57,411 nt of DNA from an uncultured Parvularculaceae bacterium (GTDB lineage: Bacteria; Pseudomonadota; Alphaproteobacteria; Caulobacterales; Parvularculaceae): contig CALLPQ010000022.1 of the NCBI GenBank assembly GCA_938015425.1, forward strand, positions 1-57,411. Reading direction: 5' to 3'. Each line of letters opens with the position of its first letter. Position 1 is the stretch's first letter. The notes below the pieces were generated by a model. The model saw nothing but the letters and a program-made list of their open reading frames with translations. It was not told where the DNA came from and searched no databases. The position numbers were made by a program, and so were the translations under genes. This document shows positions 48,735-55,925 of the stretch, piece by piece.

Positions 48735-50069
48735 CTAACTTCCATTAAGAGCCGTCCATAATCTGTCAATTCGTGCAGGGCCCGTTACTGAACCAGTTAC
48801 CGAACCAGTTACCGAACCTGTTCCCGAGCTTGTTCCCGAGCTTGTTAAAGACCCCGTCACCGATAATGACAGGGCATTGGCATTTATGATTTCCCCAGCA
48901 ATAGCCATTAAATCATTAGGGGTTACCGCCTTAATACGGTCTAAAATCATTTTGGGTGTCCGGCATTCCCCGAAAGTCATTAATTGTGCGGAGGCTCCTT
49001 CAATACGGGCGACAGGACTTTCCCTCCCCATCAATATGGACGAGCGTAACAAGGCCTTGGCACGGTCCAGTTCCGCATCATTAATATTTTCCGCCATCGC
49101 TTTTAATTCATTGGCGACTAAATGACAGGCTTTTTCCGCTTGCTCTGCATCCGTACCAATATAAGCCCCAATTAACCCCCCTTCATCAAAACTATCAGAA
49201 AATGCGTAGACAGAATAAGCAAGGCCAAATTCTTCTCTTATTTTTTGGAATAACCGTGAAGACATGCCCCCGCCAAGGACATCGGAAAATAACCGCGCCG
49301 CCAAATAACGATCATCATCATACCCAAAACCGGGATAAGCAATGGCAATATGGGTTTGTTCCAAGGGCTTATCATCATAGTGTATCCCGCCGCGATAAAC
49401 CGGTCGCTTTCGTCCATCAACCGTCCCCTCAATGGGGGAAGGTTTCAAGTCCCCGTAAAAATTTTGTGCCATCGCAAACAGACTATCAGGGTCCACCCCG
49501 CCTGACGCTGCCAGCACCATATTAGGCGCGTAGTATAAACGGTCCATAAAACCGGTTAATTTTTGGCGCGAATGCCCCCGCACTGAATTTATAGACCCCA
49601 AGATGGGCCGCCCTAAAGAATGATCACCCCAAGCAACCCGCGACAGGTTTTCAAACACGCTATCATCGGGATCATCGGCCGCCTCGCCAATTTCTTGAAT
49701 GACCACATCTTTTTCCCGCTCAAGTTCGGCTTCATCAAACACGGGTTGCATTAAAATATCGGCCAGAATTTCACTGACATGATTAAAATCATCTTTTAAA
49801 AAACGCCCATAATATCCCGTACGCTGATGACTGGTTGCCGCATCCAATGACCCGCCAACATTCTCCAACTCGATCGCAATATCACGGGCACTGCGGGTCT
49901 TGGTCCCTTTAAAGGCCATATGCTCTAACAAATGTGCGATGCCCGCCTCATCATCGGCTTCATCCAGCGTACCCGCCTTAACCCACATGCCCATAGCCAC
50001 AGAGGAAAAATCAGGGATGGGGTCACATATAATGCGCAGCCCATTATCTAACGTCATTATTTCAGCCAT
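48735..50069 (-). CDS. M16-family zinc peptidase (processing-peptidase-like)
   Basis: 444 residues, inverzincin fold. The zinc motif HLLEH (in IAHLLEHMAFKGT) with the downstream Glu in EREKDVVIQEIGEA marks an active peptidase related to mitochondrial processing peptidase beta. Alphaproteobacterial homologues lie next to thrC, as here (16 bp gap). The C-terminus carries a repetitive tail of GSVT/SSGT units (about residues 409-433) made by 12-bp DNA repeats, not part of the usual family end. Confidence 0.93.
   Translation of the reverse strand: MAEIMTLDNGLRIICDPIPDFSSVAMGMWVKAGTLDEADDEAGIAHLLEHMAFKGTKTRSARDIAIELENVGGSLDAATSHQRTGYYGRFLKDDFNHVSEILADILMQPVFDEAELEREKDVVIQEIGEAADDPDDSVFENLSRVAWGDHSLGRPILGSINSVRGHSRQKLTGFMDRLYYAPNMVLAASGGVDPDSLFAMAQNFYGDLKPSPIEGTVDGRKRPVYRGGIHYDDKPLEQTHIAIAYPGFGYDDDRYLAARLFSDVLGGGMSSRLFQKIREEFGLAYSVYAFSDSFDEGGLIGAYIGTDAEQAEKACHLVANELKAMAENINDAELDRAKALLRSSILMGRESPVARIEGASAQLMTFGECRTPKMILDRIKAVTPNDLMAIAGEIINANALSLSVTGSLTSSGTSSGTGSVTGSVTGSVTGPARIDRLWTALNGS
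48784..48843. repeat. 12-bp tandem repeat, five units, in the peptidase C-terminus
   Basis: Units GTTACTGAACCA, GTTACCGAACCA, GTTACCGAACCT, GTTCCCGAGCTT and GTTCCCGAGCTT in register (48784-48843). Being a multiple of three they add four residues each without a frameshift. Confidence 0.95.
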
Positions 50070-50084
50070 AAATCTCTCTTAAAA

Positions 50085-51491
50085 CTATACTGTTTGGGCA
50101 TGACCAAGGATAAAGGCACGAATTGCAGCCGGATCAGCAGCGCAATGGGACATGACCTCTGGACGATCATATAAATCCTCCATGCTTTTTGGCAGGCTGG
50201 GGGTTTGCCCCGTTGCGGCCACCACACTTTCAGGGAATTTCGCCGGATGGGCGGTGGATAAAGTGACCATTGTGCCGGTATGATCGCGTTCACGATCGGC
50301 AATCTTTTTGGCAACCACGCACCCAACAGCCGTATGCGGATCAATCAAATAACTCGAGCTCTCAAAATGCTCTTTCATGCAAACAATAACCTCTTTCTCG
50401 CTCGCCATTTGTGAGGTGAACAATGGGGACATCTTCTCAAAGAGCGTTTTGGGGAGTGTAAAGCCGCCAGATTGTTTTTGACACGCCATTAACGCCCGCA
50501 CCTGATCACTATCACGGCCTGACATTTCAAAAATCAACCTTTCGAAATTACTGGCCACTTGAATATCCATAGAGGGAGATGTGGTTGCATTTACCTTTGT
50601 GGGTTGATAGTCACCTGTTTGCAAAACGCGATGAACAATATCATTTTGGTTTGTTGCCGCACAAAGGCGATGAATAGGAAGGCCCATTTTATGGGCCACA
50701 AAACCCGCAAATATATCACCAAAATTGCCTGTGGGCACGCAATAGGATAGTTTTCTATCGGGCGCACCCAAGGCAACCGCTGACGCAAAATAATAGACCG
50801 ATTGAATGGCGATACGCGCCCAGTTAATAGAATTAACACCGCCAAGGGCAACATTTTGCGCAAACTCACGCTCCCCAAAAAGGGTTTTTACAATAGATTG
50901 ACAATCATCAAATGTCCCGTCCACCGCAATATTAAAGATATTGGCGGCACCACTTGTGGTCATAATTTTTCGTTGCACGGCAGAAATTTTACCTTCGGGG
51001 TGCAAGATAAAAACATTTAACCGAGCTTTATTTTTAAGGGCCTCAATTGCTGCCCCGCCAGTATCCCCCGAGGTAGCGCCGATAATCGTCAGTTTCTGAT
51101 CGCGCTTTGCCAGCACTTTTTCAAACATCAACCCCAATAGCTGCATCGCCACATCTTTAAACGCAAGAGTTGGCCCATGGAACAATTCCAATATCCACTC
51201 ATCATCACCAATTTGCCTCAGCGGTGCCACCGCCGGATGGGTAAAATTCGCAAAAGCATGCTCGCACATTTCGGCCAATTCACCATCGGTAAATGTATCT
51301 CCCACAAAGGGAGATAAAACTGCACAGGCAATCGCGGCAAAGGATTGGCCTTTAAACCTTGCAATATCTGCGCTCGAAAAATGTGGCCACTCTTCCGGCA
51401 TATAGAGCCCACCATCAGGGGCCAACCCCGCCAATAACGCCTCTTCAAAAGAAACGCTGGGGGCGCGCCCTCTGGTGGAACAATATCGCAT
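50085..51491 (-). CDS. thrC: Threonine synthase
   Basis: 468 residues from the ATG at 51491. PLP-dependent conversion of O-phosphohomoserine to threonine. The PLP lysine lies in GPTLAFKDVAMQL near residue 110; ATSGDTGGAAIEA and PTGNFGDIFAG bind the cofactor phosphate and substrate. The opening MRYCSTRG is typical of the bacterial class with an N-terminal thr_synth_N domain. It precedes the M16 peptidase gene, the usual alphaproteobacterial order. Confidence 0.95.
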   Translation of the reverse strand: MRYCSTRGRAPSVSFEEALLAGLAPDGGLYMPEEWPHFSSADIARFKGQSFAAIACAVLSPFVGDTFTDGELAEMCEHAFANFTHPAVAPLRQIGDDEWILELFHGPTLAFKDVAMQLLGLMFEKVLAKRDQKLTIIGATSGDTGGAAIEALKNKARLNVFILHPEGKISAVQRKIMTTSGAANIFNIAVDGTFDDCQSIVKTLFGEREFAQNVALGGVNSINWARIAIQSVYYFASAVALGAPDRKLSYCVPTGNFGDIFAGFVAHKMGLPIHRLCAATNQNDIVHRVLQTGDYQPTKVNATTSPSMDIQVASNFERLIFEMSGRDSDQVRALMACQKQSGGFTLPKTLFEKMSPLFTSQMASEKEVIVCMKEHFESSSYLIDPHTAVGCVVAKKIADRERDHTGTMVTLSTAHPAKFPESVVAATGQTPSLPKSMEDLYDRPEVMSHCAADPAAIRAFILGHAQTV

Positions 51492-51570
51492 CAAATTATC
51501 CTAAATTATAAGGCCTTAGAGCCCGAATCAAACACCGTCAAACGACTTCAGCAGATTGTATACCAGATAT

Positions 51571-51598
51571 CGGTCAGGCTCTTACGGTCAGGCTTTTA
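51571..51598. repeat. 14-bp tandem duplication near a gene end
   Basis: CGGTCAGGCTCTTA followed by the same unit with one change (51585-51598), immediately downstream of the paraoxonase-like gene's stop. Confidence 0.9.
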
Positions 51599-51602
51599 GC
51601 GG

Positions 51603-52652
51603 TTATCGGTCCATATCACAAATCAAGAATTTTTCCTCATAGAGAGAACCAATAATAAGTTTTCTTACAGACCTAGCTGCAACTGACGATCCTGAAAGAG
51701 ATGCTCCGTCATCAGAATAAAGAGTAGAAACCTCTTTGGTTTTTGGATCGAACGTATAAACCCGCGATGGAGCCAGTATATCTTTATCACGTCTATGACG
51801 GGCCAAAGCCAAGGGCTGCGGGTGGGCCCCAATCAAGAATAACCCCTCTTCATCAATATTGATATTATCCACCGCCGCCCCGACCCTTATTCTTTCAGAA
51901 AAGGTCAAATATCCGGTTTCATCATCACGGTCATATTCAATAATATTCCCGCCAGCCGTTTCAGCCACATAAAGCTTTTGACCATTACCATCTAAAGCAA
52001 TGCCATTTGCATTCTGGATGCTGCTCGCTGCCTCATGCCAAGATATACCATTAAAAAATAGGACGCGGCCCGTGCGCTGACGTAACAAGAAGCTCAACCG
52101 CCCGAGTATATTGGAACTGCCTGAATATTTATCATTGGTCACATAAAACGCACGCGGGCCAACCGCAATAATGTCATTAGGGTTGCTTAAGCGTTTTTCT
52201 TTTAACGTTTCCAGATGGGCTAAATCCCCTTGCCCATCCACATCATAAATCTCGACGGCATTGTCAGCCTCATTCACCACGAATAAGCGTTTAACCCCCG
52301 CCCCTTCAAAAAAATGGATACCCTGAGGGGCAAAATTTTCAGGCACGCCCTTCGTCCGGTCATACCAAGAACTATCTTCAAGGGGATTATGAATATCAAA
52401 TAGGTGGATGGCCCCGCGCTTGCGGTCATCCCTTTTTGCTCTGCGATTATAAGAAGAAATAAAAGCCTTTCGGCGCGTGCCATCAAACTGTATGTCTTCC
52501 GGGCCGGCTATTCCAGTGACCGCCTGACATTGACCATTAAAGCTGGAGCGGACCTCTTCAAAATGATTGAATGAGCGAACAATCCACACCCCCCATGCAG
52601 CCACACCAATCAACAATATTAAACCGAGGAACGCAATAATCCGTTTCATCAT
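51603..52652 (-). CDS. Paraoxonase/arylesterase-like beta-propeller protein, membrane-anchored
   Basis: About 349 residues with an N-terminal membrane anchor or uncleaved signal (residues 4-26) then a six-bladed propeller of the PON family. Calcium-site segments match human PON1: GPEDIQFD, NPNDIIAVG, NANGIAL and VDNINID all keep the metal ligands. The two catalytic-type histidines of PON1 (115 and 134) correspond to Gln in PQGIHFF and Glu in VVNEADN. It may be an inactive or altered lactonase. Start chosen at an ATG at 52652 or 52649; no good ribosome site is visible. Confidence 0.83.
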   Translation of the reverse strand: MMKRIIAFLGLILLIGVAAWGVWIVRSFNHFEEVRSSFNGQCQAVTGIAGPEDIQFDGTRRKAFISSYNRRAKRDDRKRGAIHLFDIHNPLEDSSWYDRTKGVPENFAPQGIHFFEGAGVKRLFVVNEADNAVEIYDVDGQGDLAHLETLKEKRLSNPNDIIAVGPRAFYVTNDKYSGSSNILGRLSFLLRQRTGRVLFFNGISWHEAASSIQNANGIALDGNGQKLYVAETAGGNIIEYDRDDETGYLTFSERIRVGAAVDNINIDEEGLFLIGAHPQPLALARHRRDKDILAPSRVYTFDPKTKEVSTLYSDDGASLSGSSVAARSVRKLIIGSLYEEKFLICDMDR

Positions 52653-54955: not shown

Positions 54956-55925
54956 TGACATTGATTTTATGATTTTTACGCTACAAGTTTTTTCTTGAGT
55001 ATTTCATAAGGTGTTTTTCCTTTAAGGGAAGTGTGTGGTCTGTGGTAATTATAAAAAATTTCCCATTCAGTGAGCTTTTTTTGCAAGTTTTGGTCTCCTG
55101 TGTAATTGAGCAACTGATAAAACTCGGTCTTATCAGTTAAGTGTGAACGCTCGACTTTCCCATTCAAATGCGGGCTAGCCGGTTTAATGTAGCGGTGAAT
55201 GATGCCGATATCCTCGGCATGCCAATGAAATTTTGATTGGAATTCGTGACCATTATCAGTCTGAACATATTTGATGCGGAACGGAAATTTTTCAACGACA
55301 TAATCCAGAAAGTTGATCGCGTTTGCTTGATTATGTTTCTCATATACTTTTAAGGCACGAATACGGGTCGCATCATCAATCGCTGTATACTGAAAGCGTT
55401 TGATCCGTTTGCCATTCTTATCAGTAAAGAACAGGAACTTGACGTCAATCTGAACCTGATGGCCAGGCACCGTTTTTTCATAGCGCTTGTAGGTGCTCGG
55501 CGAGCGTTTCGGTGCGCCTTTTGGTAATCGGCTAAGTCCGTTACGTTTGAGTACGCCAAAAACCCCAGTGGGCGATACGCTCAGTCCGTAATAGCGCTGC
55601 AGATACCAACTGATCCGCTGCTGACCGAGCCCGAACTCTTTGCGAACATAGATGATTTTCTCTTCAATTTCTGCCGATACGCGGATCTTAGGATTTTCTG
55701 GGCAAGGTTTAGAGTTGATCAGCGCCTCTTTTCCACCAGCAGCTAATTGTCGTTTCCAGCGGTAATAAGTATCTCGCGATATACCGTAGCGCCGGCAAAC
55801 AAAACTCACATTACCTGCTTGTTCACCTTCTTCAAGAATGCGGGTCTTCCGCCTGATATCGTGCTCTGCTTGTCGGTTCATCAACCTTCTCCTGACATGT
55901 CAATTCATTATAGAATAAACTGTCA
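54956..55925 (-). mobile_element. IS481-type insertion sequence
   Basis: About 970 bp. The ends are TGACA at 54956 and TGTCA at 55925, continuing as imperfect inverted repeats of about 20 bp. GCC flanks both sides (54953-54955 and 55926-55928), a possible 3-bp target duplication. It carries one transposase gene. It inserted 40 bp past the DUF429 stop. Confidence 0.8.
54976..55884 (-). CDS. Transposase, IS481-type DDE
   Basis: 302 residues. An N-terminal helix-turn-helix (VSFVCRRYGISRDTYYRWKR near 25-45) is followed by a second DNA-binding region and an rve integrase catalytic core with the DDE triad: Asp in VQIDVKFLF, Asp in YVQTDNGHEF and Glu in NGKVERSH. No frameshift or stop is present, so the element may be active. 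It fills almost the whole element. Confidence 0.93.
   Translation of the reverse strand: MMNRQAEHDIRRKTRILEEGEQAGNVSFVCRRYGISRDTYYRWKRQLAAGGKEALINSKPCPENPKIRVSAEIEEKIIYVRKEFGLGQQRISWYLQRYYGLSVSPTGVFGVLKRNGLSRLPKGAPKRSPSTYKRYEKTVPGHQVQIDVKFLFFTDKNGKRIKRFQYTAIDDATRIRALKVYEKHNQANAINFLDYVVEKFPFRIKYVQTDNGHEFQSKFHWHAEDIGIIHRYIKPASPHLNGKVERSHLTDKTEFYQLLNYTGDQNLQKKLTEWEIFYNYHRPHTSLKGKTPYEILKKKLVA

Follow-up and report, generated by a model that had tools for sequence, protein, structure and literature searches.

The window, the whole stretch of 57,411 nucleotides that was analyzed, forms contig 22 in a draft genome of 2.5 Mb whose nearest relatives are Marinicaulis, Parvularcula, and Amphiplicatus (Parvularculaceae). 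On its minus strand, an open reading frame (ORF) running from 52652 to 51603 encodes a paraoxonase (PON)-like protein of 349 amino acids plus a stop codon, here called PON-A; the ORF listing also offers a GTG start two codons further upstream. The protein matched the Pfam Arylesterase family (PF01731) at 53.3 bits (cutoff, 21.3), with a second, lower score of 29.9 bits for SGL. In the PDB, PON1 chains matched residues 27 to 347 with E values of about 6e-25 to 2e-23, and the identity to PON1 (1V04, 3SRG) is 30%. An NCBIfam search with the protein gave no match, and scans of viral contigs and genome contigs with the window protein alone recovered no relative. Close to the locus, at 54976-55884 on the minus strand, lies a 302-amino-acid ORF that resembles an IS481-type transposase (integrase core), judging its translation by eye.

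Table 1. Features of the PON-A locus, with window coordinates
Feature	Coordinates	Strand	Assignment	Basis
PON-A gene	51603..52652	-	349-aa PON-like six-bladed propeller, predicted to be membrane anchored	ORF; PF01731; PDB matches to PON1; model pLDDT 96; Z 42.7 to PON1
N-terminal hydrophobic helix, residues 2-27	52572..52649	-	Probable uncleaved signal anchor	Helix in model; hydrophobic N terminus across PON-A clade; topology predicted
Cys42	52527..52529	-	With Cys345, counterpart of PON1 Cys42-Cys353 disulfide	Bond predicted
Glu52/Asp53	52494..52499	-	PON1 Glu53 (Ca1)/Asp54 (Ca2)	Alignment; His/His-only profile
Gln110	52323..52325	-	PON1 His115 position, no histidine	Alignment; His/His-only profile
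Glu128	52269..52271	-	PON1 His134 position, no histidine	Alignment; His/His-only profile
Asn159/Asp160	52173..52178	-	PON1 Asn168 (Ca1)/Asp169 (Ca2)	Alignment
Asp174	52131..52133	-	PON1 Asp183	Alignment
Asn216	52005..52007	-	PON1 Asn224 (Ca1)	Alignment
Asp262/Asn263	51864..51869	-	PON1 Asp269/Asn270 (Ca1)	Alignment
His277	51822..51824	-	PON1 His285; kept here, lost in 48/55 clade members	Alignment
Cys345	51618..51620	-	PON1 Cys353	Alignment
thrC	50085..51494	-	Threonine synthase, downstream of PON-A family-wide	Pfam; synteny
M16-family peptidase	48735..50069	-	Next after thrC; present in 11/21 loci examined	Pfam

In the genera examined, PON-A immediately precedes thrC and is transcribed in the same direction; the two are also adjacent in G006. 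Both genes were resolved at 19 loci; at 18 of these the gap ranges from -4 to 67 bp, and the window locus has a gap of 111 bp. M16 peptidase, GNAT, and EAL genes often come next. This linkage suggests that PON-A and thrC are cotranscribed, and it indicates nothing definite about function. A connection between thrC, a gene of the homoserine pathway, and homoserine lactones was considered and is unsupported by synteny alone. The slot upstream of thrC is occupied by SURF1 in other Caulobacterales. This order is broken in Parvularculaceae, where PON-A sits in the slot and SURF1 elsewhere (window positions 50085-52652 compared with L183, L187, and L189). Because SURF1 is still present in the same genomes, this is a rearrangement and no replacement of function, and PON-A was rejected as a functional substitute for SURF1.

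An AlphaFold2 model of the PON-A protein, built on 102 aligned relatives, has a mean pLDDT of 96 and forms a full-length six-bladed propeller. When superposed on PON1, as the original prediction had proposed as a check, the model matches its fold with a Z score of 42.7 and 2.2 Å over 321 aligned residues. Across the PON1 structures, including the H115Q/H134Q double mutant (4HHQ, Z 41.5), Z scores range from 41.5 to 42.7 and rmsd values from 2.1 to 2.3 Å; the score for DFPase is 26, against 42 for PON1. Given the alignment register and strand order, the side chains at the dyad and ligand sites are predicted to superpose as well.

All five Ca1 ligands of PON1 are kept in PON-A, namely, E53 (E52), N168 (N159), N224 (N216), D269 (D262), and N270 (N263). 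With D54 (D53) and D169 (D160) also retained, the ligands of both calcium sites are present in the sequence, as are D183 (D174), His285 (H277), C42, and C353 (C345). The alignment thus bears out the proposal that the segments carrying Glu53/Asp54, Asn168, Asn224, Asp269, and Asn270 are conserved. His285, which that proposal did not mention, is present in the window protein and lost in most orthologues. From these ligands, the protein is predicted to bind calcium. It also has both the Cys42-Cys353 pair and an N-terminal hydrophobic helix; Cys42 occurs in 54 of 54 and Cys345 in 55 of 55 PON-A sequences. The helix is probably an uncleaved signal anchor, with the propeller in the periplasm.

In PON1, a dyad composed of His115 and His134 mediates lactonase and arylesterase activities, and replacing either histidine, or the pair, lowers or abolishes these activities (PMC7766523). 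Pairwise alignment places Gln110 of PON-A at His115 and Glu128 at His134, with no gaps at either site (FNPHGI in PON1 and FAPQGI in PON-A; LLVVNH and LFVVNE). The flanking residues Pro109, Gly111, and Asn127 are invariant or nearly so family-wide, and a profile made from 92 His/His homologues only gave the identical register at both sites, with high posteriors. These data uphold the claim that Gln and Glu replace the two histidines. It is very improbable that the alignment has simply missed the dyad of a normal PON lactonase, or that a neighboring histidine stands in for the lost ones. His113, His277, and His286 do occur near the dyad segments, but the clade does not conserve the first or the last, and His277 already corresponds to His285 of PON1. 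The strand order of the model agrees with the gapless, family-invariant register, which places no real histidine at these sites. The catalytic dyad of the PON1 enzyme type is therefore absent from the PON-A protein, and it is absent clade-wide.

A PON match at E ≤ 1e-30 was found in 60 of 62 Parvularculaceae genomes. Most of these matches are PON-A, and the best match in the family is usually a PON-A orthologue with 37 to 53% identity. The PON-A clade comprises 55 Parvularculaceae sequences, covers almost all genomes of this family, and is monophyletic with a FastTree support of 98 and an SH-aLRT value of 97 (IQ-TREE, reduced set). Position 115 is never histidine in these sequences (L in 34, G in 5, V in 4, I and M in 3 each, and others), and position 134 is Glu or Asp in 29, Ala in 11, and His in 2. 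Calcium residues are nearly fixed at N168 (52/55), N224 (53/55), N270 (53/55), and D54 (54/54). Glu53 is lost in 9 of the 54 sequences that cover it, comprising all eight members of genus g3 and L064; Asp269 is substituted in 7 of 55, and one or both residues are altered in 12 of 55. In the genus g3 sequences (L022, L024, L025, L026, and L127 to L130), Asp269 and Asn270 are also partly lost, and purifying selection persists. Since 55 orthologues in one clade share the loss of the dyad, chance is excluded as the source of the substitutions. Both histidines were lost in a single ancient event, which the favored reading places at the root of this clade. The original prediction had offered the right set of options (inactive, a binder, or a hydrolase with a new mechanism), but it had treated the protein as a single oddity, whereas the loss is ancient and clade-wide.

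The prediction had also called for a survey of the two positions across bacterial PONs. Outside the PON-A clade, both histidines are kept in 92 of the 112 natural PON sequences sampled. The exceptions include Spirochaetota (Leu/Ile), KSB1 and Bacteroidetes (Leu/Arg), one alphaproteobacterium (Leu/Arg), Ferrovibrio and its relatives (Arg/Gln, Gln/Asn), His/Arg paralogues, and a few sequences that lack some calcium ligands. The tree requires 10 to 11 changes between His/His and other dyad states, so dyad loss is recurrent; its frequency in bacteria is an estimate from a nonrandom sample of 167 sequences. Judged by these sequences, Parvularculaceae is the large, conserved case of dyad loss within the sample. 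Ca1 ligands are kept in dyad-less proteins from Spirochaetota, KSB1, Bacteroidetes, an alphaproteobacterium, and Ferrovibrio (L237, L265, L269, L093, L138, and L268).

The source genome contains two further PON homologues, a His/His protein (PON-B, contig 59) and a His/Arg copy (contig 50). A His/His PON frequently accompanies PON-A in the same genome; in genera g3, g5, g8, and g9, PON-A is present and a PON-B match is absent. A phylum-wide search with PON-B as the query (E ≤ 1e-20) recovered PONs from a small number of genomes. The combination of His115 with Arg134 represents a third paralogue type in Parvularculaceae (L003:225-1391 on contig 50, L045, L046, L048, L049, and L051), and the H134R change also occurs in directed-evolution PON1 variants. 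In Alphaproteobacteria, genes for His/His PONs are often preceded by one for an ABC exporter, and some of them lie near DUF1465. At seven alphaproteobacterial loci (L153, L157, L158, L149, L159, L165, and L167), the PON gene comes directly after a gene of about 600 codons, which encodes an ABC exporter in the four cases tested (L149, L153, L158, and L159). The two genes form a conserved pair whose members share 4 bp in L158 and in L165, and DUF1465 or OmpA-family genes are near some of the loci.

Among close PON-A pairs, dN/dS is 0.08 to 0.24 (0.17 to 0.24 in genus g3), and among His/His pairs it is 0.02 to 0.20. The PON-A clade is functional and under purifying selection that is slightly relaxed. 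At the 22 positions that form the PON1 pocket, mean entropy in PON-A relative to His/His PONs changes by +0.45 bits versus -0.40 elsewhere (+0.43 without the Ca1 ligands; 0 of 20,000 permutations), in a test that includes both dyad sites, whose change had drawn attention to the clade. A difference in entropy change is likewise seen for the inner strands when position 115 is left out (P = 0.006). The most relaxed positions include 115, 134, 285, 169, and the loop around 291 to 295; out of 335 columns, positions 115, 134, and 285 rank 198, 284, and 255 in entropy and are drifting. The Ca1 ligand columns are still among the conserved ones, and two positions of the pocket, 222 (Phe) and 332 (Thr/Ser), also show strong conservation in PON-A. 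Residues newly fixed in PON-A are R79, P90, L91, D98, T100, G102, P104, R122, R154, G178, F188, G195, and W205. By strand topology, the clade-specific invariants R79, R154, G178, F188, G195, and P280 sit on loops of the active-site face, which is compatible with a reshaped substrate pocket. At the PON1 pocket positions, no clade-specific invariant able to act as a new catalytic group was found in PON-A.

The relaxed pocket, the loss of calcium ligands in genus g3, and two g3 genomes that lack a match at E ≤ 1e-30 are what would be expected if PON-A were a decaying paralogue on its way out, redundant beside the His/His PON-B. We regard this as improbable. Such decay is contradicted by the dN/dS values, open frames, fixed synteny, near-universal presence, and new invariants of the clade, and in g3, g5, g8, and g9 there is no PON-B match, so redundancy fails there.

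Ca1 is the catalytic calcium in PON1, and its retention in most members is therefore as much expected for catalysis as for stability. The main alternative to a binding role is a Ca2+-dependent hydrolase resembling DFPase and SMP30, in which Glu52 and Asp262 would activate a calcium-bound water and Leu115 would make the pocket hydrophobic in most members. We consider this possible, although well short of probable. All five Ca1 ligands are kept in the window protein and most of the clade, and the conservation of positions 222 and 332 also agrees with it. E53Q and D269N variants of PON1 retain measurable activity, and a water activated by Glu53 and Asp269 is the proposed nucleophile (PMC6100192). 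DrSOD, a calcium propeller with a site like that of DFPase and gluconolactonase, hydrolyzes 2-coumaranone (PMC12362111), and PON1 H115Q/H134Q folds and is said to converge organophosphate and lactonase activity (PMC7766523). However, the 12 sequences in which Glu53 is missing or Asp269 changed argue against such a hydrolase, as do pocket positions that are on average relaxed instead of fixed anew. Genus g3 lacks Glu53 in every member sampled, with Asp269 lost in several, and yet remains under purifying selection, which argues that selection is not maintaining catalysis through Glu53, at least in that genus. The window member, judged by its sequence, ranks with the most enzyme-like proteins in the clade, and with Glu53, Asp269, Asp183, and His285 kept it may use a different hydrolytic mechanism. 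It is rather unlikely, in our estimation, that the His-free clade as a whole is still enzymatic, having acquired a PON mechanism that needs only calcium with Glu53/Asp269 and acts on a new substrate, as a natural counterpart of the H115/H134 replacements obtained by directed evolution of PON1.

Dyad loss predicts the loss of PON-type lactonase activity, which PON-A probably lacks, and does not thereby prove inactivity. Pocket relaxation, the Glu53/Asp269 changes, and purifying selection together tilt the balance toward a binding-type role other than that of a PON. We give slightly better than even credence to PON-A being a Ca2+-stabilized, membrane-anchored propeller that binds a partner or ligand and has abandoned the His115/His134 lactonase mechanism. 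This mechanism would have been given up a single time, when the Parvularculaceae clade arose, with the protein persisting as a six-bladed propeller presumably stabilized by Ca2+. The N-terminal helix would anchor it in the inner membrane with the propeller in the periplasm, where it would act by binding a partner or ligand, or as a scaffold, instead of by PON-type hydrolysis. Counterpoints to a binding role are the window protein itself, which keeps every Ca1 ligand as well as D169, D183, and H285, and the clade-specific invariants on the active-site face.

By descent and fold, PON-A is a member of the PON family and is not to be filed as a PON1-type lactonase. It shares with PON1 (1V04, 3SRG; PF01731) the six-bladed propeller, the Ca1 and Ca2 ligands, Cys42-Cys353, the N-terminal helix, Asp183, and His285. 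It differs in lacking the His115/His134 dyad, in having Ala at the free Cys284 of PON1, in the relaxed pocket of its clade, and in being a bacterial protein linked to thrC. PON1 H115Q/H134Q (4HHQ) likewise has no dyad histidine, carries Gln at position 115, and keeps the calcium ligands, but it is engineered, whereas PON-A has Glu at 134 and belongs to an ancient natural clade with mostly Leu115. DFPase and SMP30/gluconolactonase (1PJX, 3G4E) have a calcium-centered propeller active site without the PON-type histidine dyad. By homology, PON-A (E52, N159, N216, D262) has the corresponding ligand set of Glu, two Asn, and Asp, equivalent to Glu53, Asn168, Asn224, and Asp269, again without the dyad. 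It has no close sequence kinship with these proteins, and SGL/DFPase members are not its closest relatives in sequence or structure. In DFPase, moreover, a water occupies the place where Asn270 binds calcium in PON1 (PMC6100192). In the H115Q/H134Q mutant of PON1, Ca1 shifts by 1.8 Å and lactone-analogue binding is lost (PMC7766523). MEC-6 and POML-1 of Caenorhabditis elegans are PON-like endoplasmic reticulum (ER) proteins with a reported chaperone role (PMC4825646); they differ from PON-A in being animal ER proteins, and the comparison is one of described roles. They serve as a precedent for a nonenzymatic role, as calcium-propeller lactonases free of the histidine dyad (PMC12362111) do for a hydrolase. 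A literature search, with key works on bacterial PONs outside its scope, found no paper that pairs Parvularculaceae with paraoxonase.

What His115 and His134 contribute to PON catalysis continues to be debated. If PON-A is inactive, it would be a bacterial PON pseudoenzyme that is well conserved. The 55 dyad-less orthologues, most of which keep the calcium ligands, the His/His paralogues that share their cells, and several independent losses elsewhere provide natural pairs that can be used to test the role of the dyad and whether Ca1 and Glu53/Asp269 suffice.
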